A stretch of 64,000 nucleotides of DNA. Origin: Prevotella amnii DSM 23384 = JCM 14753. GTDB lineage: Bacteria; Bacteroidota; Bacteroidia; Bacteroidales; Bacteroidaceae. The notes beneath the pieces were generated by a model. The model did not search any database, was not told where the DNA came from, and saw nothing but the letters and a program-made list of their open reading frames with translations. The stretch spans positions 5,390 through 69,389 of the forward strand of contig NZ_KB905274.1 of NCBI RefSeq assembly GCF_000378745.1. The letters are read 5' to 3'. How positions within the stretch are numbered: the stretch's first letter is position 1; each line of letters opens with the position of its first letter. The position numbers and the translations under genes were made by a program. Positions 1,311-22,824 of the stretch are shown piece after piece.

Positions 1311-2540
1311 TTAGATAGTCAGCTGCATATCACCTGTAAAAGAGAGGAAAAGGTCGAACTCCTCAAAAAGTTTCAGTGGAGTTACTTTGGCATAGCGTTC
1401 CGTCATGCTTATGTTGGAATGTCCCAGCATCTTGCTTACCGTTTCAATAGGCACACCCTGTTCAAGCGTGATGAGTGTTGCAAAGGTGTGCCTTGCGGTA
1501 TGAGTGGTAAATGGAAACGATATGCCTGCACGAAGCCGCAGGGCTTTCAGACAGGTCTGATAGCTCTTGTACTTGATATAGGGAAGCAGTGTTTCCCTTT
1601 CATCGCAGTGAAACCTCTCTATCAGCCTAATGGCTTCGGGCAATAACTTGATACGGCAGGGTACGCCTGTCTTGTGGCGGTTGAATTTCAGCCACATTTT
1701 GCCTTCATCATCACGGACAAGGTGGGACTTGCTCAGTTCCATCAGGTCGCAATAGGCTGCACCAACATAGCAGGCAAAGAGGAATATGTCCCTTGCCGTT
1801 TCCATTTCTTCCTCCAAATCCTCAAAGCAGAGAGCCTTCAGCTTTTCCAACGCTTCCTTGTCGAGTGCCTTGGGGAGTTTCTTGTTGCCCTTTGATATCT
1901 TAACCTTGTCAAAAAGGAGCGTGTCTGCCAATCCCTCACGGTATGCCAATCTGCATACCGTCTTCAAATGCGTGGCTACATTATAGAACGTGCTTTCCTG
2001 AAAACCACACTCACCTAAGAAATACTGCTGGAACTCATGGATAAAATCCTCTGTAAGTTGCGAGAATGCCAAGTCCGAAACCTTGTACTTCCGTTGAATA
2101 AACTTCTGTAAATGTATCCGGGTGGAGTGGTAGCCGTGTATGGCTCCTTCCTTGATGTCTATACCTACATGGTTTTCTTTTTCCTTGATGAGTATGTCCA
2201 GCCTTTCGATGAGCATGCACCGTGTCTGCACGCTGCCCTGAAACTGCTCCTTCACATCGGTTGCGTCAAACGGGCATCCTTTGGAGAGCAGGGACTGATA
2301 AGCAGACTGAACGGACAGCAACAGGTTTTCCAACCTGCTGTTCACTTCCACCGCCTCACGGCTCTTTCCGTCCATTCGGCTCTCACGGGGATTCCACAAA
2401 TCGGGATTGCAGGAGAGTTTGCAACTGAACTGGGCAATGGAACGGTCGATGGTTATCCGCCCCATAATCGGGGCTTTGCCCGACTTGTCAAGACCGCTCT
2501 TTTTGAGGTAGAGCAACACCTTCATTTTTCCTTGTTTCAT
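1311..2540 (-). CDS. Tyrosine recombinase / integrase (second of a tandem pair)
   Basis: 409 residues, complete. It has an N-terminal arm-binding region (MKVLLYLKKSGLDKSGKAPI), a central core-binding helical domain (about 105-210), and a C-terminal catalytic domain with HTARHTF (H347, R350), LGH (H374) and the Tyr nucleophile at 383 in TERYAKV. The usual first Arg is replaced (YVGAAYCDL). IntDOT of the Bacteroides conjugative transposon CTnDOT is known to lack this Arg as well. It is transcribed toward the other integrase. A TAACTTTG box lies 20 bases upstream, inside an 11-bp inverted repeat. Higher G+C than the chromosome to the right marks it as acquired. It most likely catalyses integration or excision of the element whose body lies left of the window. 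Confidence 0.95.
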   Translation of the reverse strand: MKQGKMKVLLYLKKSGLDKSGKAPIMGRITIDRSIAQFSCKLSCNPDLWNPRESRMDGKSREAVEVNSRLENLLLSVQSAYQSLLSKGCPFDATDVKEQFQGSVQTRCMLIERLDILIKEKENHVGIDIKEGAIHGYHSTRIHLQKFIQRKYKVSDLAFSQLTEDFIHEFQQYFLGECGFQESTFYNVATHLKTVCRLAYREGLADTLLFDKVKISKGNKKLPKALDKEALEKLKALCFEDLEEEMETARDIFLFACYVGAAYCDLMELSKSHLVRDDEGKMWLKFNRHKTGVPCRIKLLPEAIRLIERFHCDERETLLPYIKYKSYQTCLKALRLRAGISFPFTTHTARHTFATLITLEQGVPIETVSKMLGHSNISMTERYAKVTPLKLFEEFDLFLSFTGDMQLTI

Positions 2541-4912: not shown

Positions 4913-5773
4913 TTATTTTTTTTCAGTATCTTTTGGTGCTTTACCTATTAAGTCCATAAACTGGTCGAGCTTTGGAGTAATTATTATTTGTGTACGACGA
5001 TTGCGCTGACGTCCCAGCTCTGTATCATTCCCCACAATAGGGTTATATTCACCACGACCTCCAGCAGTTATTCTGCTTGGATCTACCCCAAAACGGGTCT
5101 GTAAATAATTAGCTACAGAAGTAGCACGAAGCGCTGAAAGATCCCAATTGTTACGGATATTAGCCATTATTTTATTAGTAGTATTAATAGGCACATTATC
5201 TGTATTTCCCTCTATAAGAACATCATAATTATTATAATCCATAATAATCTTAGCTATCTTACTTAAAGTTTGCTCTGCACGAGAATTGATTTCATACGAA
5301 CCACTCTTATATAGCATATTGTCGGCCAAAGATATATATACTACACCCTTTAAAACTTGTATATCTACTTCTTTTAGCTCTTCTCTGCTCAATGAGCGCG
5401 TAAGATTATTCTGAAGAGCCATATTGAGCGAATCGCTCTTAGTTTTCACCTCGACAAGATGGCGTATATACTGGTTGCTCTCATTAATCTGATCTACCAG
5501 CTTAGCTATATTAATATTGTTATAATTAGCACTTGTCAAGCTCTTATCTAAGCTACCTTGTAACGCTGCAGCACTCTCTTTTGCTTGCGCTAACTGATCT
5601 TCCAAACTCTTTATACGTGCATTGTTTGCAGCTATGGTTTCCTTTGCACTCTGATAATCGTTTGTCAGCTTATTATTTTCTGTACGGCAATTATCTAAAT
5701 CTTTCTTACTTGCACAACTTGAAAAAGCTAAAGTAGCAGCTAAAACACTGATAATAAAATAGACTTTCTTCAT
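4913..5773 (-). CDS. OmpA-family peptidoglycan-binding lipoprotein
   Basis: 286 residues. A lipoprotein signal ends at the lipobox FSSC (Cys20). Residues about 25-85 are a heptad-rich coiled coil (KKDLDNC... SLEDQLAQAKESAA). The C-terminal OmpA domain (about 150-270) carries the EGNTDNVPI and NWDLSALRA motifs and ends with GRQRNRRTQI, the peptidoglycan-contacting signature. It probably tethers the outer membrane to the cell wall. A full promoter (5810-5839) and a strong terminator frame it as a single-gene unit, divergent from purL. The Bacteroides homologues are OmpA/MotB-like lipoproteins; the exact subfamily is not resolved. Confidence 0.92.
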   Translation of the reverse strand: MKKVYFIISVLAATLAFSSCASKKDLDNCRTENNKLTNDYQSAKETIAANNARIKSLEDQLAQAKESAAALQGSLDKSLTSANYNNINIAKLVDQINESNQYIRHLVEVKTKSDSLNMALQNNLTRSLSREELKEVDIQVLKGVVYISLADNMLYKSGSYEINSRAEQTLSKIAKIIMDYNNYDVLIEGNTDNVPINTTNKIMANIRNNWDLSALRATSVANYLQTRFGVDPSRITAGGRGEYNPIVGNDTELGRQRNRRTQIIITPKLDQFMDLIGKAPKDTEKK

Positions 5774-11693: not shown

Positions 11694-13139
11694 CTACTTT
11701 TGCTTTTTTCTCAAAAAATATCTGATACACTCTTCTAATATTTGCGAGCCTGAAATCTTCATGATAATAAAGTAAAGAAAAGAAGCCATTATAAGACGAA
11801 CTATCAAAAGAACTATCTTATTATGAATAAAAGTAGTTGCAAAATAAGTAATAAACATCACTATAAGTGTAATAACAAGATAAGGCAATATATCTTTAAG
11901 CACATCTAAAAGGCGTATGCCTATCTCCTTATTAGCAAAATATTGCCATACAAAAAGCCATAGTATTGTAACAAAAGTATATATACTTACCATAATCACA
12001 ATACCATAATGAAAACATGTTAACACCGTAGATAGCTGAACAATTATCAACGCTACAGTACACCACATATAAATAGCCGACTTACCTCTACTTACTATCA
12101 AGTTTTGATACATTATATAAAAAGGAACAAAAGCACCGCTTATACATAGTATACGAAGCAAAGGGATACTATCTACCCACTTTTCTGAAATCAAAAGAAC
12201 TATAAATTCGTTTGCCACCATAGCCAATCCAAACATTGCAGGGAAAGCTAAAAAAGCTGTAAAACGAAGCATTTTGCGGAAGATCTTTATCTGTCTCTCT
12301 CTGTCATTATTTACCTCTACCAAGATAGGCTGTGCTACCATTGCTATTGTGCCTGAAACAAAAGTGCTTGCCATAGTATCCCATTTGAAAGCCTGTGAGA
12401 AATTGCCTACAGCCTTAGCTGAATAAAAACGCCCAAAGATAAAAGTAAGTAGATTTTGGCTTAATGAGTTTATAATAGTTGTTAGTAATATCTTATAACT
12501 GAAAGAAAACATTCTCTTTATCGGGCTGAAGTCTATTTTAAGAGATGGATGCCATGGTGTAATAAAAAATCTGCCAATACTCATAATAGCGATAAACAAA
12601 AATTGTTGCCATGCCAAGCTCCAATAAGCATACCCTTTAAAAGCTAATATTATACTTATAATACCTGAAAAGATTAAGGATAGTATGCGCAAGATTGTTG
12701 TTTCCCTTACTATCATATTTTTAAAAAGATAAGCAGTGTGCGCTGTTCCTAATGCAGAAAATATCAACGAAACAAAAAGAAAACGTGAAAGCGAGATAAG
12801 CTCTACCTGATGAAAAAAGTTAGCTATCAATGGAGCTGCAAAAAAAAGTATCGTGTAAGAAATACAGCTTATAAAAGTACTAAACCAAAATACTGAATTA
12901 TAATCGTTATCTGATGGCTTTTCCATGTTAGCTAAAGCAGAAGTAAAACCACTCTCTTGCAGAGCACTTGCAATAGCTGTAAAAACAGCAAGCATACCTA
13001 CTAAGCCATAGTCGGACGGAGAAAGCAATCGAGCAAGAAAAATGCCAATAACAGCATTAAGAACTTGCATAGAGCCATTATTAAATGCTCCCCAGAGCAA
13101 TCCTTTTGCAGTCTTTTCTTTTAACGTTTCTTTTTCCAT
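11694..13139 (-). CDS. Wzx-like oligosaccharide flippase (MOP superfamily)
   Basis: 481 residues with about 12-14 hydrophobic segments over the whole length. The N-terminus KTAKGLLWGAFNNGSMQVLN and the following LLSPSDYGLVGMLAVF are typical of polysaccharide flippases of the WzxC/RfbX kind. It would move undecaprenyl-linked glycan units across the inner membrane. It is divergent from the LicD operon, with back-to-back promoters at 13190-13221 and 13333-13363, so both may serve the same surface glycan. The substrate is unknown. No polymerase or ligase gene is next to it. Confidence 0.9.
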   Translation of the reverse strand: MEKETLKEKTAKGLLWGAFNNGSMQVLNAVIGIFLARLLSPSDYGLVGMLAVFTAIASALQESGFTSALANMEKPSDNDYNSVFWFSTFISCISYTILFFAAPLIANFFHQVELISLSRFLFVSLIFSALGTAHTAYLFKNMIVRETTILRILSLIFSGIISIILAFKGYAYWSLAWQQFLFIAIMSIGRFFITPWHPSLKIDFSPIKRMFSFSYKILLTTIINSLSQNLLTFIFGRFYSAKAVGNFSQAFKWDTMASTFVSGTIAMVAQPILVEVNNDRERQIKIFRKMLRFTAFLAFPAMFGLAMVANEFIVLLISEKWVDSIPLLRILCISGAFVPFYIMYQNLIVSRGKSAIYMWCTVALIIVQLSTVLTCFHYGIVIMVSIYTFVTILWLFVWQYFANKEIGIRLLDVLKDILPYLVITLIVMFITYFATTFIHNKIVLLIVRLIMASFLYFIIMKISGSQILEECIRYFLRKKQK

Positions 13140-13189: not shown

Positions 13190-13221
13190 CAAAAGTACTA
13201 TAAAACAAAGGACCTACCAAA
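13190..13221 (-). promoter_or_regulatory. Bacteroidetes promoter of the flippase gene
   Basis: On the minus strand TTTG (13221-13218), 20 bases, TACTTTTG (13197-13190). The ATG lies 50 bases downstream. Confidence 0.72.
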
Positions 13222-13332: not shown

Positions 13333-13363
13333 TTTGCTCGTCCATCATTTAATATTATTTTTG
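13333..13363 (+). promoter_or_regulatory. Bacteroidetes promoter of the LicD operon
   Basis: TTTG (13333-13336), 19 bases, TATTTTTG (13356-13363). The LicD ATG is 23 bases downstream, giving a short leader. Confidence 0.75.
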
Positions 13364-13386: not shown

Positions 13387-14220
13387 ATGGTAACAACTTT
13401 TAATACAGGCGAAACACAAGAAATGTTGCGTAAGGAATATAATCCTGACGGATCTGTTTTGCGGCGCGCCCAGCTACGATTGCTTGACATGGCTATATAT
13501 CTACAACAAACAGCTAAAGCCATAGGAATACCTTGCAGATTAGATGGTGGCAATGTTTTAGGCGCTTTAAGGCATAAGGGATTTATTCCTTGGGATGATG
13601 ATATTGATTTTGTAGTGCATCAACGAGACTTTAACCGTCTATGCAATTATATTAAAGCACATCCACATCCACAATACGTATTGCAAGATAACACCACCGA
13701 TAGTGGATTTTATAAAGAATGGGCTTGCCTACGCGACTTAAAGAGCGAAAACAGAAGCCATGACAACAGCAACAGCGAAGACAAACGAATGCATGAAGCT
13801 CAGCACTACCGCGGTTTACATATAGACATATTCCCCTATGAGGGATATATGATACCTTGGCTGCAACATTTAGCTGCAAAACTATCGGTTAATGTCAATC
13901 TAAAATTATCTGGTAAACACCCACACTTAGCACAGTTATGTTACACAATATTGCATAATATAGTGTTCCCATGTTTTCGTGTCTTTGGTAAAATGTTTGG
14001 CAATCCTACTAACTATATGCACTCTTATGGTGCATGGTTTTATGAGCAAAACCCAGAGAATATTATGTTTCCACATAAGGATATAACGTTTGAAGGGTAC
14101 ACTTTTGAAGGTCCTGCTAATCCTGAAGAATTGTGCCGCATTGCTTATGGCAAATATATGGAACTTCCTCCAAAAAACAAGCGAGATAGACATAAGATAG
14201 ATATAGTTTTTATTGATTAA
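13387..14220 (+). CDS. LicD-family phosphotransferase
   Basis: 277 residues. The LicD/fukutin nucleotidyltransferase signature is plain: RLDGGNVLGALRHKGFIPWD followed by DDIDF, then HIDIFPYEG. Known members move phosphocholine or a phospho-alditol from a CDP carrier to a glycan at the membrane. No choline kinase or LicC gene is adjacent; instead a CTP-dependent cytidylyltransferase follows after 37 bases. That suggests a CDP-alditol or similar donor made in the same operon (inference). The gene starts at the ATG just after its promoter and heads a four-gene unit. Confidence 0.9.
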   Translation: MVTTFNTGETQEMLRKEYNPDGSVLRRAQLRLLDMAIYLQQTAKAIGIPCRLDGGNVLGALRHKGFIPWDDDIDFVVHQRDFNRLCNYIKAHPHPQYVLQDNTTDSGFYKEWACLRDLKSENRSHDNSNSEDKRMHEAQHYRGLHIDIFPYEGYMIPWLQHLAAKLSVNVNLKLSGKHPHLAQLCYTILHNIVFPCFRVFGKMFGNPTNYMHSYGAWFYEQNPENIMFPHKDITFEGYTFEGPANPEELCRIAYGKYMELPPKNKRDRHKIDIVFID

Positions 14221-14257
14221 ACAAACATTTTTTCGTGTTTACATACTTTTTTTAGTT

Positions 14258-14977
14258 ATGAATATAGCCGTAATATTTGCTGGTGGCTCTGGTCAGCGTA
14301 TGCACACCAATGGAAGACCAAAACAGTTTTTAGAGCTTAATGGCAAACCTATTATCATTTATACTCTTGAGCTGTTTGATAATCACCCTATGATAGATGC
14401 CATTATAGTGTCTTGCATTGAGGAATGGATACCTTTTTTAGAAAAAGTTATTCGTAAATTTGAAATTAACAAAGTCGTTAAGATTGTACCCGGAGGAAAA
14501 ACGGGGCAAGATTCTATTTATAAAGGATTATGTGCTGCCGAAGAATATTCACAAGGTAGCAATGCCACAGTACTTATACATGATGGTGTCCGCCCATTAA
14601 TAAATGAAGAAACTATAACCGAAAATATAAAGAAAGTGGCAGAATGCGGTAGCTGTATAACCTGTGCACCAGCTACAGAAACATTTATAGTAAGGCAAGA
14701 AGATAAAAGCTTGCGCATTCCCTCACGCAAAGACTCGCTTATAGCACGTGCTCCACAAAGCTTTCTTTTAAAAGACATTTTAGAAGTACATCGTAAAGCT
14801 TTAAAGATAAACAAGCACGATTTTATCGACTCTTGCACCATGATGAGCCATTATGGCAAAATATTAGGCACTATTATAGGGCCTATGGAAAATATAAAAA
14901 TAACAACACCTACCGATTTTTTCGTGTTTCGTGCAATGATTGCTGTTCGAGAAGATCAACAGATTTTTGGGTTTTAA
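14258..14977 (+). CDS. IspD/TarI-family cytidylyltransferase
   Basis: 239 residues from ATG 14258. A TTG at 14213 would add 15 residues overlapping the previous gene and is unlikely. The CTP-binding motif FAGGSGQRM with RPKQFLELNGKPI, the central HDGVRPLI, and the C-terminal NIKITTPTDF identify the family. IspD makes CDP-methylerythritol for isoprenoids; TarI makes CDP-ribitol. Placement between LicD and an SDR favours a CDP-alditol for glycan decoration, but an isoprenoid role is not excluded. One base separates it from the next gene. Confidence 0.85.
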   Translation: MNIAVIFAGGSGQRMHTNGRPKQFLELNGKPIIIYTLELFDNHPMIDAIIVSCIEEWIPFLEKVIRKFEINKVVKIVPGGKTGQDSIYKGLCAAEEYSQGSNATVLIHDGVRPLINEETITENIKKVAECGSCITCAPATETFIVRQEDKSLRIPSRKDSLIARAPQSFLLKDILEVHRKALKINKHDFIDSCTMMSHYGKILGTIIGPMENIKITTPTDFFVFRAMIAVREDQQIFGF

Positions 14978-14978
14978 C

Positions 14979-16019
14979 ATGAATAAAACATTACGTCAGG
15001 ACATACTACATTTTGCAGCCTCTTTTCCCTTATCAGAAGCTCTCCGCAAAAAGACCATAGCCATAACAGGAGCTACAGGGCTATTAGGTTCATGCATGAC
15101 TATGGCTTTATTAGAGCTTAACAAGCTATATAATCTTAACTTGCGCGTTATTGCCATAGTACGCAATACAGAAAAGGCACACAAAATGTTTGGAAATGAG
15201 AATAACTATTTTGACATTTTCAAACATAACTTTAATAAACATCTTCCTTTTAAAGCACCAGAACATATTGATAGCATAATACATTTTGCTGCTCCTACTG
15301 CTTCAAAGACATTTATAGAAGAGCCTATAGAAACAATGAACACAGTATATTTTGGCACTAACAGCTTATTAGAATATGCTAAAAAGTCTGGTTTGTCTTC
15401 TTTTGTTTTAGCTTCCACTTTAGAGGTCTATGGTACGATATATGACGATTCTACACTATTAACAGAAGATAAACAAGGTTATATCGACCCTATGGCTACA
15501 CGTAGTAGTTACCCTTTAGCTAAAAGAGCCGCAGAAGCTCTTTGCCATAACTACGCCATAGAGTATGATGTAAATGCTAAGGTAGCTCGATTAGCACAAG
15601 TTTTTGGCGCAGGTGTAGCAAAGAATGATAACCGAGTGTTTGCCCAATTTGCTAAAGCTGCCATAAATAATAAGGACATTGTATTAAATACCACAGGAGA
15701 ACTTTGCCGTAGCTACTGTTACACAATAGATGCAATTACGGCTATTCTTTTTATTATGATAAAGGGTAATAAGGGTGAGGCTTATAATGTTGCCAACGAG
15801 AAAAGTTACATATCTATAAAGGATATGGCTAAGATGGTCTTAGAAAATCATCACCCTACTGGCAAATTAATATTTGACATCAAAGAAGGTTTAGGTTATT
15901 CACCCACTACTAAGCTACGTCTATCTTCTAAAAAGTTAGCATCTTTAGGTTGGAAGCCAGAGTACAACCTTAGTGAAATGTTCGATCGCTTAATAGCAAG
16001 TTTTAAAGAAACGGTGTAA
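14979..16019 (+). CDS. NAD-dependent epimerase/dehydratase (extended SDR)
   Basis: 346 residues from ATG 14979, one base after the previous stop; an upstream TTG at 14940 is less likely. The Rossmann motif TGATGLLGS (about residue 33) is followed by the active-site Ser/Thr region and YPLAKRAAE (YxxxK) near residue 180. It resembles UDP-sugar epimerases and dTDP-glucose dehydratases. In this operon it probably prepares a sugar or alditol for the CDP-linked donor. Its stop overlaps the next start (TAATG), so translation is coupled. The substrate cannot be read from sequence. Confidence 0.87.
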   Translation: MNKTLRQDILHFAASFPLSEALRKKTIAITGATGLLGSCMTMALLELNKLYNLNLRVIAIVRNTEKAHKMFGNENNYFDIFKHNFNKHLPFKAPEHIDSIIHFAAPTASKTFIEEPIETMNTVYFGTNSLLEYAKKSGLSSFVLASTLEVYGTIYDDSTLLTEDKQGYIDPMATRSSYPLAKRAAEALCHNYAIEYDVNAKVARLAQVFGAGVAKNDNRVFAQFAKAAINNKDIVLNTTGELCRSYCYTIDAITAILFIMIKGNKGEAYNVANEKSYISIKDMAKMVLENHHPTGKLIFDIKEGLGYSPTTKLRLSSKKLASLGWKPEYNLSEMFDRLIASFKETV

Positions 16020-16912
16020 TGGGAATTTTTAGAAATTTATATAATAGTATCTTTCATACTTATACAAAAGTAGATTTAAGCAAATGGAATCATAGTCCGC
16101 ATAATGATAAGCCCATATATGGTGTATACCATATCTTAATGGATAAAGGGTGGGAAAAACTTGCAGAAGCTCAGCTACATAGCTTAAAGCAAAGCGGTTT
16201 ATTAAGTGTTACCAAAAAGCTCTATCTCAGCTGTATAAGTGATAACGAAGAAAATATAGAAAAGCTAAAGAAGAAAATAGATAGTAACAATGTCGAGCTG
16301 GTAGCTTTTCATAAAGATCCAAAATGCTATGAATATCCTGCCCTCGAATTTATTAGAAAATTGAGTATAAAAGAAGATGCTTTTTTATATTATTTCCATT
16401 CTAAAGGCATAAGCTATCAAATGGTTGATAGCAAAGACAAACAGTTTATGTCTTTTCGTAGTAAGATAGATGCATGGCGTGAACTGTTAGAGTATTTTGT
16501 TTTTTATAAATGGAAAGTAGCTGTAAACGTTCTTTCGGAAGGCTATGATACTTATGGCTGTTATCGTTGGCCTCCTAAAAAACACAAAATGTATAGTGGT
16601 AGTTTTTGGTGGGCTCGTACCGACTTTATACGTACCTTACCCTGTTTCGATTCAAATATTATTGCTAATAACCGGTTTTATTCTGAAACATGGCTCTTTG
16701 AAAGACCTAACAAGCAGTTTTCTGCTTTCGATTCCATAGTAGATTTTTATTTTGTACATGTTCCACATAGCATTTATATGGAGAAACACCCTCCTTTAAA
16801 AGATATTTTTCGCTTTGTAGCTACTTACAATTTTCGTAAGATAACAAAACATCTTTTTGGATATAACTACAAAAAGGTGAATCAAAAGCGATTTCAAAAA
16901 TTAAAAAGATAG
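16019..16912 (+). CDS. Putative glycosyltransferase
   Basis: 297 residues, no membrane segment. Motifs YYFHSKGIS (about 120) and MYSGSFWWARTDFIRTLP (about 190), then SETWLFERP, match a group of capsule/LPS-locus glycosyltransferases with an HSKG motif, related to the rhamnan-synthesis type. It begins with a one-base stop/start overlap with the SDR gene and ends the operon. It likely adds a sugar to the glycan that LicD decorates. The sugar and linkage are unknown; the family assignment is by motif only. Confidence 0.7.
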   Translation: MGIFRNLYNSIFHTYTKVDLSKWNHSPHNDKPIYGVYHILMDKGWEKLAEAQLHSLKQSGLLSVTKKLYLSCISDNEENIEKLKKKIDSNNVELVAFHKDPKCYEYPALEFIRKLSIKEDAFLYYFHSKGISYQMVDSKDKQFMSFRSKIDAWRELLEYFVFYKWKVAVNVLSEGYDTYGCYRWPPKKHKMYSGSFWWARTDFIRTLPCFDSNIIANNRFYSETWLFERPNKQFSAFDSIVDFYFVHVPHSIYMEKHPPLKDIFRFVATYNFRKITKHLFGYNYKKVNQKRFQKLKR

Positions 16913-20046: not shown

Positions 20047-22824
20047 ATGAAAATGAACTTTTATAAGCATTTTATATTTGCATGTTTCCTTGCTTTTGGG
20101 ATATGTGCAATGTCTTGTTCTGACGAAATATTTAGTACAGATAATAATAGCAAAGACGGACAGCTACACTTTATAGCAGAAGTAGTACAAAACAATCAGC
20201 TAACAAAAGATAGCAGAGCTGCACAGCCAGCTGACGCCTGCATTGAAGCTCGCAACATATCAGAAACCATGTTTCAAGGTAAAAAGATGTGGTTACAGGA
20301 TAGAACTATTAATGGTATCTTTTCTTCTTCTAAAAATAAAGCTAAAACACGTGGGGACATAATACCTGCAGATATTTCTTATCTTAATGAAAATGAAATT
20401 AAATTATCATTATGGAGTTATAGGAAGGGAAAAGAGCAAGACAAATATGATGAATGGTTAAATAAAGAGACATTAAATATTAATAAAGAGGGATTGGGAA
20501 CCTTTGAAGAAGATCCAAATAATCCACAAAAATATTTATGGTCGTATAATAAGCCATACTGTAAGTTTGTTACTTTATGTACGAATGAAAGTACTTCTGA
20601 TGAGAATGGTGAAAGTTCCAAAGTAGCATATACTTATAACAAGGAAGAACAATTACCTCAAATCAAGTTTGAATGTCCTAATGATGTTTCTAAACAATTC
20701 GATTTATTGGCAGCAAGTACAGATGTAAACTATAATACTCAAGCAAAAGATGATCCCATAAAGCTTAAATTACTTCCTGCGTTAACTGCTGTACAATTTT
20801 CTATCAATTTAGGCAAATTACCCGATGAGATAACACTAACAGCAGTACAACTAAAAAATATAGTTACCAAAGGAATATATACTTTCCCAACTGCAAAAGA
20901 ACCTTCTGGTTCTTGGAGCTTTTCTAAAGATGATAAAGGCACTTTATCTTTAACTTGTATTAAAAATTTTAATAACGACGACGATAATACAATAACATTA
21001 GGTGAAGATCCATGTAAAGAGAAAGGAGACGACGGAGAAGAATTTTGGTCAGGTGGTGATGGTAATACATTTTTTGTTATTCCACAAGATTATGCAGATA
21101 TTAAAGTTTGCCTCACACTACATAATGATTTTAAAGACAAAGATCAATATCTTGAGGTTCCCCTTGATAAAGGGAAATTTGACGCTGGACAAACAAAAAT
21201 CTTAAAATTATCAGCTCACAAATCGTTAAATACATTAATAACCAAAGGACCTAAACTCATCTTTATTAATGCTAAAGAGGCTCAATTTTCGGTTTTTAGT
21301 TATTTACAAAAAGGACCTAATGAGAATGCTGAAAATGCACCATGGGAATATGTTGGATATGAAGATAGTGATAATAAGCTACATGAAAATTCTACCCCTG
21401 ACTGGCTTAATTTGGTTACAAAATTAGGTGAGGGTGGACGTAATGAAGGTAAAATAGAAATAACACCTTTAAAACTAACAACTTCATATCCGTGGGATAA
21501 CGAATTTGATAAAACTGAAAAAGCACCTAAGCCTTATAACCTTGCAAATGCAAATGGTGAATCAAACATAGAAGAAACCGCTAATTGTTATATTATTTCT
21601 TCACCTGGTACCTATTCCATTCCTTTGGTATATGGTAATGCTATTAAGAATGGAGGAACTAATAAGGCTTCCTTTAAGTATAAAGGTGAAACACATAAAA
21701 ATGATAAGAAGCTTGATACTTTTATAAACTATGCTGGTAAAGAAATAACTTCTCCCTATATAAATGAAGATAACGCTAACGATAAAGCCATAAAAGCAGA
21801 ACTTCTTTGGGAGGATAGAGAAAACATGTTAAGTGTTATACCTAACATAGTAAGTGGGGCGCAAGGTCACGATTACTTAACATTTACAGTTTCTTCAGAT
21901 CAAATTAAGAGCGGCAATGCTTTAATAGCAGTAAAAAACAAAAATAATACCATTATGTGGTCGTGGCACCTGTGGTTTGTTCCAGCAAAAGAATATGGAA
22001 AAACTGTACAATTAACAGATATGTACGGAACTCAACGTCACGTAGCTAAATTACCATTAGGCTATATACCTTTTTTATATGGACCTAATGAAAAACATCC
22101 AAGAAAAGTAAAATTAGTATTCAGACAAACTAATAATGATAAAATACGAAGTAAGTTTACAGTAGAGCAAGAGACTATTACAAAACACTTGTTTTATACT
22201 AATTATTATCAACATGGACGAAAAGATCCTTTTTCAGGTGATGTTGCACATGCGCAAGATGGGAAAATAACCTGTGTTGATGGTACAAAAACTTTAGCTT
22301 ATGCTATACAGAATCCAAATCAGCTAATAAATTATGATTATAAGACAAATTGGTGTAGTAATACATATTTTAATCTTTGGTCTGCTAACTTTTCTATATT
22401 AGACGAAAACCTTAAACTTAGCAATAATGTTAAGACCATTTACGACCCATGTCCTGTAGGATATAAAGTACCTCCTGTAAATACTTTCACAAAAATGGAA
22501 AAAGAAGGTACCGGCTACGATAAAGATAAATATGGTTGGACCTTCAAAACCGATAATAACAAAGAATCTTTATTTATATCAATGACGGGGAACTTAACTT
22601 ATCAAAATGGAAAATTAGAACCTGATGTATATGTGATAAAAGATAAAACGTTTCCATATCCAGATGCACAAGGATTTTATCAATTAGCCACAAGCAATAG
22701 CACTGTTGACAAAGAAAATAATTCAAGATGTTCTCTTTTCTTGGGTCAAGGAAATTATAAACCTTGTGAAATATATAATAACATGGCTGAAGCTGATACT
22801 GTACTACCTGTAAAAGATGAATAG
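20047..22824 (+). CDS. Large fimbrillin-like surface lipoprotein
   Basis: 925 residues. The lipoprotein signal ends at AMSC (about Cys24). The N-terminal half resembles fimbrillin/Mfa-like modules: TRGD near residue 100, long beta-rich repeats, and FFVIPQDY about 345. The C-terminal half holds ANCYIISSPGTYSIPL, IMWSWHLWFV and YDPCPVGYKVP, a set common to large Bacteroidales surface lipoproteins and fimbrial tip-like subunits. It probably acts in adhesion at the cell surface. The family usually needs arginine-type gingipain-like cleavage for assembly; no such site was proven here. It pairs with the small gene upstream and ends in a hairpin. No usher or anchor (Mfa2-like) gene is adjacent. Confidence 0.72.
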   Translation: MKMNFYKHFIFACFLAFGICAMSCSDEIFSTDNNSKDGQLHFIAEVVQNNQLTKDSRAAQPADACIEARNISETMFQGKKMWLQDRTINGIFSSSKNKAKTRGDIIPADISYLNENEIKLSLWSYRKGKEQDKYDEWLNKETLNINKEGLGTFEEDPNNPQKYLWSYNKPYCKFVTLCTNESTSDENGESSKVAYTYNKEEQLPQIKFECPNDVSKQFDLLAASTDVNYNTQAKDDPIKLKLLPALTAVQFSINLGKLPDEITLTAVQLKNIVTKGIYTFPTAKEPSGSWSFSKDDKGTLSLTCIKNFNNDDDNTITLGEDPCKEKGDDGEEFWSGGDGNTFFVIPQDYADIKVCLTLHNDFKDKDQYLEVPLDKGKFDAGQTKILKLSAHKSLNTLITKGPKLIFINAKEAQFSVFSYLQKGPNENAENAPWEYVGYEDSDNKLHENSTPDWLNLVTKLGEGGRNEGKIEITPLKLTTSYPWDNEFDKTEKAPKPYNLANANGESNIEETANCYIISSPGTYSIPLVYGNAIKNGGTNKASFKYKGETHKNDKKLDTFINYAGKEITSPYINEDNANDKAIKAELLWEDRENMLSVIPNIVSGAQGHDYLTFTVSSDQIKSGNALIAVKNKNNTIMWSWHLWFVPAKEYGKTVQLTDMYGTQRHVAKLPLGYIPFLYGPNEKHPRKVKLVFRQTNNDKIRSKFTVEQETITKHLFYTNYYQHGRKDPFSGDVAHAQDGKITCVDGTKTLAYAIQNPNQLINYDYKTNWCSNTYFNLWSANFSILDENLKLSNNVKTIYDPCPVGYKVPPVNTFTKMEKEGTGYDKDKYGWTFKTDNNKESLFISMTGNLTYQNGKLEPDVYVIKDKTFPYPDAQGFYQLATSNSTVDKENNSRCSLFLGQGNYKPCEIYNNMAEADTVLPVKDE

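Follow-up and report, generated by a model that had tools for sequence, protein, structure and literature searches.

Organization of the operon

The window analyzed here is a stretch of 64,000 nucleotides of Prevotella amnii DSM 23384 (JCM 14753), positions 5,390 to 69,389 of contig NZ_KB905274.1 (G000:C10:5390-69389), from a genome of 2.39 Mb with a listed completeness of 99.99%. It contains a compact operon that codes, in this order on the forward strand, for a LicD-family protein, a cytidylyltransferase (CT) of the IspD superfamily, an extended short-chain dehydrogenase/reductase (SDR), and a presumed glycosyltransferase, with the gene of a Wzx-type flippase on the opposite strand (Table 1). 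Judging from sequence comparisons, we propose that the operon probably makes and attaches a phospho-hexitol to the protein O-glycan by way of a CDP-hexitol and LicD.

The four-gene operon is real as described in the original prediction, which had given the spacing exactly (a 37-base gap, a 1-base gap, and a 1-base overlap) and had placed the flippase divergent from it. The arrangement is more than chance, because a matching CT and SDR stand beside this LicD in 26 of the 43 genomes that carry it, and the dN/dS values against the closest relative are low (0.063 for LicD and 0.038 for the CT). For the SDR and the fourth gene, dN/dS was not computable, as dS was saturated. A Bacteroides-type promoter pattern, TTTG-N18-20-TAnnTTTG, was counted 9 times in the window (expected, 1.94); the divergent gap holds two of these sites, one per direction. 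In a sigma-70 scan, sites were rarer than in shuffled sequences (10 versus 17.9). The CT was taken to start at the ATG at 14258, the open reading frame lister opening the same frame at the TTG at 14213, and the SDR starts at the ATG at 14979.

TABLE 1 Coordinates in the window of the operon, the flippase gene, and the promoter-like sequences between them
Feature	Position	Strand	Remarks
Wzx-type flippase	11694..13139	-	Transcribed away from the operon; best matched by NF058658 (O-glycosylation flippase)
Bacteroides-type promoter-like sequence, flippase side	13190..13221	-	Pattern match only
Bacteroides-type promoter-like sequence, operon side	13333..13363	+	Pattern match only
LicD-family transferase, proposed hexitol-phosphate transferase	13387..14220	+	PF04991, 102 bits; FKRP-like model fold
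IspD-superfamily CT, proposed fructose-6-phosphate cytidylyltransferase	14258..14977	+	PF01128; clade outside TarI/IspD rows
Extended SDR, proposed NADPH-dependent CDP-fructose reductase (CDP-hexitol synthase)	14979..16019	+	8v4g match, kept residues
Presumed glycosyltransferase, role a guess	16019..16912	+	No family match over cut-off; low-confidence GT-A-like N-terminal half

Proposed synthesis of the activated donor

(i) Reductase. The SDR is a member of the Epimerase family (PF01370, 127 bits; cut-off, 20.9), and its best solved match is 8v4g/8v4h (196 bits), followed by UDP-glucuronate decarboxylase as the next kind (107 bits). Excerpts of PMC10918830 describe two structures of HS5.17, the CDP-6-D-glucitol synthase of Campylobacter jejuni; that 8v4g is HS5.17 follows from a single mention in these excerpts and from the fitting residue numbering. 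The SDR is identical to HS5.17 at 109 of 291 aligned residues and at 13 of the 18 ligand or active-site residues named there. These 13 include the catalytic Tyr and Lys, the two Arg residues of the pyrophosphate site, the Tyr that stacks on cytosine, and two residues in contact with the hexitol, Gln and Glu. The hexitol-contact Gln and a Ser on the pyrophosphate side are found in all 28 distinct orthologs of the SDR and in none of 17 sister-class SDRs, where His or Arg, and Pro, occupy these positions (identical sequences were merged, and the comparison covers SDRs above set scores). When one of the sister-class SDRs was compared with the PDB, UDP-glucuronate decarboxylase was preferred (127 versus 104 bits). 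The CT and SDR, whose genes adjoin, fit the type of pair that synthesizes CDP-hexitols (HS5.18/HS5.17 and Mnp1/Mnp2). We thus regard a CDP-hexitol as the likely donor; the product would be either CDP-6-D-glucitol or CDP-D-mannitol. This agrees, at the level of sequence, with the original proposal of a CDP-linked donor, perhaps a CDP-alditol, that is placed on a glycan.

(ii) Cytidylyltransferase. The CT matches the IspD family PF01128 with 126 bits (cut-off, 27). Another PF01128 gene of the same genome outscores it with 178 bits, and the CT stays below the cut-off of the ispD model TIGR00453 (152 versus 181 bits); we therefore rejected it as the isoprenoid IspD. The original prediction would have been refuted had this been the only ispD of the genome, which is not the case. 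In a tree of 53 rows, the CT falls into a clade of 38 rows with a support of 99/95, outside which are the TarI rows, the housekeeping IspD rows, and a group of 9 rows near other LicD genes; the program flagged long branches that meet in this tree, from which the L040 row was omitted because of a broken gene in the draft. Outside the Bacteroidota, a metagenome-assembled genome of the Balneolales (L140, 7891-10596) has a CT with 57% identity to that of the window, together with a LicD (31%) and an SDR of the sister class (34%).

The same chemistry could also operate with five carbons: a pentose phosphate would be the precursor of CDP-arabinitol or CDP-ribitol, and the glycan would receive a pentitol-phosphate. 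The best solved relatives of the CT are TarI-type enzymes, the CT barely passes the NCBIfam model of D-ribitol-5-phosphate cytidylyltransferase (170 bits; cut-off, 166), and the pneumococcal CDP-arabinitol enzymes are of this general type. Set against this are the position of the CT in the tree, the SDR, which is nearest to a CDP-hexitol enzyme and keeps the hexitol contacts, and the C6H12O5 composition of the moiety reported from Prevotella intermedia in excerpts of PMC10897501. We consider a five-carbon product unlikely. The TarI/TarJ ribitol pathway itself was rejected, as the CT lies outside the TarI clade, with the ribitol-named model still just passed.

LicD as the probable transferase

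LicD (PF04991; cut-off, 22.6) is the only match to its family in the window's genome. Five aspartates, D70, D71, D72, D74, and D147, are invariant in 40 aligned sequences, which comprise that of the window and 39 picked by hand from 80 loci (80 of the 573 matches were listed). The predicted structure has a pLDDT (predicted local distance difference test) of 94.5, and its closest solved fold is that of human FKRP (Z, 15.7; root mean square deviation, 2.9 over 169 residues), followed by an antibiotic nucleotidyltransferase as the next kind (Z, 9.0). The structural matches include 6kam, titled as FKRP with CDP-ribitol and a sugar acceptor, and a sequence profile search found only FKRP (E, 2e-6). 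LicD is thus likely to be the transferase of the pathway. The fold itself is no proof of the donor; that this would be a CDP-alditol is indicated by the adjoining CT and SDR.

The name LicD also recalls phosphocholine (lic) decoration, which we rejected: the eight genes scanned, from the flippase to the WYL gene, include no choline kinase or LicC-like family, a genome-wide search not having been made, and the earlier suggestion of a donor other than phosphocholine holds to that extent. A housekeeping or choline role, with the CT acting as isoprenoid IspD or LicD transferring phosphocholine, has the family names only in its favor and is disfavored by the better ispD of this nearly complete genome, by the TIGR00453 score, and by the lack of a choline kinase among the neighbors scanned. 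An SDR of this kind also has no known place in the isoprenoid or phosphocholine pathways. Such a role is highly improbable.

Linkage to an O-glycosylation-type flippase

The flippase belongs to the Polysacc_synt_3 family (248 bits; cut-off, 23) and matches the O-glycosylation flippase model NF058658 over its whole length (model positions 1-478 of 478) with 654 bits, generic flippase models giving at most 166 bits. Its gene lies between licD and a phosphoglycerate mutase gene and not beside metG, which the Bacteroides flippase gene follows according to excerpts of PMC12871550. A second match to NF058658, also a Wzx, is located elsewhere in the genome and reaches 359 bits. By eye, this second Wzx stands in an exopolysaccharide-like cluster (L036; G000:C11:1-16000).

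To assess the association, we examined 398 genomes of the same genus, a draw from the larger genus, calling this LicD at an E value of 1e-70 or better and the flippase at 1e-90 or better. LicD is present in 43 of them, the window's own included, and all 43 have the flippase (L265, a second locus of G225, is outside the 43). Both genes are on one contig in 36 genomes, at a distance of up to 2 kb in 21, up to 10 kb in 26, and up to 20 kb in 31, and on separate contigs in the other 7; the genomes are related, so these counts are not independent events. In a first draw, 34 same-genus genomes (own included) have the flippase; a LicD-family gene of some kind stands no more than 10 kb from it in 22 and no more than 3 kb from it in 21, and the genomes have about 1.9 LicD-family matches each. 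This count omitted 24 genomes of other genera and two same-genus genomes without the flippase (G004 and G015).

In many genomes of the genus, LicD-family genes of only about 25 to 35% identity to that of the window also adjoin an O-glycosylation-type flippase (L062, L063, L064, L065, L067, L052, L053, L054, L057, and other loci). As so many distant LicD genes stand beside such a flippase, decoration of O-glycans with alditol-phosphates or other phosphates may be common.

The phospho-hexitol could instead be destined for a capsule, an exopolysaccharide, or lipopolysaccharide (LPS). In more than 200 organisms, CT/SDR pairs of this kind have been predicted to serve LPS and capsules (excerpts of PMC10918830), and the flippase scores below the NF058658 cut-off of 720. 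Six flippases of related genomes score between 604 and 664, among them that of G108, a genome discussed below, with 642; a score below the cut-off is therefore common to the relatives. Beyond the operon and the flippase, the next genes code for a phosphoglycerate mutase (PF06415) and a peroxiredoxin (PF00578), with no further polysaccharide genes flanking. These flanks, the repeated proximity to an O-glycosylation-type flippase, the separate location of the second Wzx, and the presence of the moiety on an O-glycan in P. intermedia (excerpts of PMC10897501) make the capsule or LPS a rather improbable destination. We have fairly good confidence that the acceptor is instead the protein O-glycan.

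Possible exchange of the CT/SDR pair

The matching CT and SDR accompany this LicD in 26 of its 43 genomes. Nine others carry a different CT/SDR pair, with 33 to 36% identity (L246, L247, L254, L256, L258, L260, L261, L244, and L046), and the stretch read in the remaining 8 contains no such pair. In two of these eight (G011 and G294), LicD is at a contig end, and draft breaks affect the CT and SDR in G017 and LicD in G232. The different pair probably makes another CDP-alditol, as far as its sequence tells. As the same LicD can apparently be served by either of two CT/SDR pairs, the distribution suggests that the alditol is exchanged by swapping the donor pair beside it. In the SDRs of the nine loci, His or Arg replaces the hexitol-contact Gln.

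Relation to the O-glycan of P. intermedia

According to excerpts of PMC10897501, the O-glycan of P. intermedia carries HexNAc-HPO3-C6H12O5, that is, a HexNAc linked through phosphate to a C6 sugar alcohol, which is reported there as novel among Bacteroidota O-glycans; fragment ions at m/z 448.12, 284.05, and 245.04 are reported for this species, and the mass of a hexitol-phosphate on the glycan would be 244.03 Da. These excerpts name no genes for the moiety, and a word search of the main text of that paper gave no LicD and no flippase. Genome G108 (2.7 Mb in two contigs) encodes the published NlpE glycopeptide of P. intermedia at 15 of 15 residues, while the eight other genomes tested match at 7 to 13. 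It has LicD, the CT, the SDR, and the fourth gene intact, at 76, 82, 59, and 58% identity to those of the window, respectively.

Several observations weigh against our interpretation. In G108 the operon is 90 kb away from the flippase, and in 5 of the 36 genomes with both genes on one contig the distance between LicD and the flippase ranges from 25 kb to 1.4 Mb. The identification of G108 as P. intermedia is based on one 15-residue peptide, and its HmuY is only 85% identical to chain 6r2h of P. intermedia. G108 also carries a second LicD, and the species of the window has no known glycan structure. To these are added the ribitol model just passed by the CT, the flippase score under its cut-off, and five changes among the 18 SDR residues, including a replacement of the cytosine-contact Asp212 of HS5.17 by Gln.

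The second LicD of G108 is in a stretch with a PF04464 gene (L279, 9317-14138; G108:C1, from G108:C1:168500). The product of one gene of L279 joins a CTP_transf_like to a GFO_IDH_MocA oxidoreductase domain, and a likeness to glycerol-3-phosphate cytidylyltransferase in this stretch reaches 111 bits, below the cut-off of 165. It is possible that L279 is a separate system of CDP-glycerol type. A C10 peptidase gene was not found in the window's genome, and the one protein tested is not close to interpain A.

The fourth gene

The original parts list was borne out for the LicD, cytidylyltransferase, and SDR families; its glycosyltransferase label for the fourth gene is weakly suggested by the GT-A-like N-terminal half of a low-confidence model. 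The protein has no Pfam match over the cut-off (the best below it, with an E value of 0.0036, was taken as noise) and no usable NCBIfam match, and a sequence search of the PDB gave only a tagatose epimerase (E, 0.14). The model, built from 6 sequences, has a pLDDT of 53.9, its N-terminal half resembles GT-A folds with Z scores of at most 7.8, and Foldseek found no match to it at an E value of 0.001 or better. The gene is present in 23 of the 26 genomes with the matching CT and SDR. It is tandemly doubled at L043, L239, L240, and L241, where the second copy is about 45% identical to that of the window.

Proposed pathway

From the gene order, the relationships, the residue conservation, the linkage, and the presence of the genes in G108, all of which are observed, we infer the catalytic steps, the acceptor sugar, and a role for the fourth gene. 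The CT would convert CTP and fructose-6-phosphate to CDP-fructose, and the SDR, whose active-site residues are kept, would then use NADPH to reduce this open-chain ketose, giving CDP-6-D-glucitol or CDP-D-mannitol. LicD, with its fukutin/FKRP fold, would transfer hexitol-phosphate to a sugar of the outer O-glycan during its assembly in the cytoplasm, most likely a HexNAc to judge from the P. intermedia glycan, and the fourth protein may add a neighboring sugar, which is a guess. The divergent Wzx would flip the glycan to the periplasm, where, as in the known Bacteroidota system, it would end up at D-(S/T)-X sites of proteins. The likelihoods of donor, transferase, and acceptor rise and fall together, and it is on this footing that we consider the joint reading probable. 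It extends the original prediction, in that the sequence evidence probably points to a CDP-hexitol, to cytidylylation before reduction, and to a probable acceptor in the general protein O-glycan.

Whether such modifications arrive with activated sugars or come later is unknown according to excerpts of a 2025 review (PMC12871550), and the O-glycan of Porphyromonas gingivalis bears a phosphoglycerol that is probably added late (excerpts of PMC8729774). In the open-licence literature, we found no work that connects an O-glycan of Bacteroidota with LicD or with a CDP-hexitol pathway; PMC11969387 gave no match for LicD, O-glycan, or cytidyl. The CT/SDR pair itself is already known, and what is new here is its tie to LicD, to the O-glycan flippase, and to the P. 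intermedia glycan. The reading provides four candidate genes for a decoration seen chemically in P. intermedia, names CDP-hexitol as the donor, and lets sequence predict which Prevotella-type species bear the group.

Other features of the window

Near the start of the window there is a gene of the phage integrase family (1311-2540, minus strand) with Arm-DNA-bind and SAM-like domains, possibly part of a mobile element. A protein of 925 residues, encoded at 20047-22824 on the plus strand, has no Pfam match at an E value of 1e-8, and its N terminus looks by eye like a lipoprotein signal.

Comparison with known systems

The C. jejuni HS:5 system (HS5.18/HS5.17; 8v4g and 8v4h) shares with the operon the pairing of an IspD-superfamily CT with an extended SDR. 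According to excerpts of PMC10918830, that pair serves the capsular polysaccharide, whereas the pair described here adjoins LicD and an O-glycosylation-type flippase. The same excerpts describe Mnp1/Mnp2 of Streptococcus pneumoniae 35A, for which the proposed order of steps is alike, with CDP-fructose first and reduction afterwards; the product there is mannitol and the setting a capsule. Mnp1/Mnp2 were compared by description only, as was the CT with HS5.18 and Mnp1, whereas the SDR was compared with HS5.17 by sequence.

With the general O-glycosylation system of Bacteroidota, as portrayed in excerpts of PMC10897501 and PMC12871550, the locus shares a flippase of the O-glycosylation kind, and the predicted product fits the P. 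intermedia moiety. The position of the flippase gene is different, after metG in Bacteroides and between the phosphoglycerate mutase gene and the operon in the window.

The human ISPD/FKTN/FKRP pathway places ribitol-phosphate on alpha-dystroglycan (opening of the abstract of PMC4873967). In both cases an IspD-fold enzyme would make a CDP-alditol and a LicD-related enzyme would put the alditol-phosphate on a protein O-glycan; the human pathway uses ribitol instead of a hexitol, has no CDP-ketose reductase, and works in another compartment. Based on the fold match and that abstract opening, we see this likeness as a parallel in how the two systems may work and not as a common pathway. More tentatively, the operon could be a bacterial counterpart of the dystroglycan alditol-phosphate system, in which a fukutin-fold enzyme decorates an O-glycan HexNAc from a CDP-alditol, while LicD is conserved and the neighboring CT/SDR pair is swapped within the genus to vary the alditol, at a site linked to the O-glycan flippase. 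If true, it would offer a simple bacterial model of the type of reaction carried out by human FKTN and FKRP.

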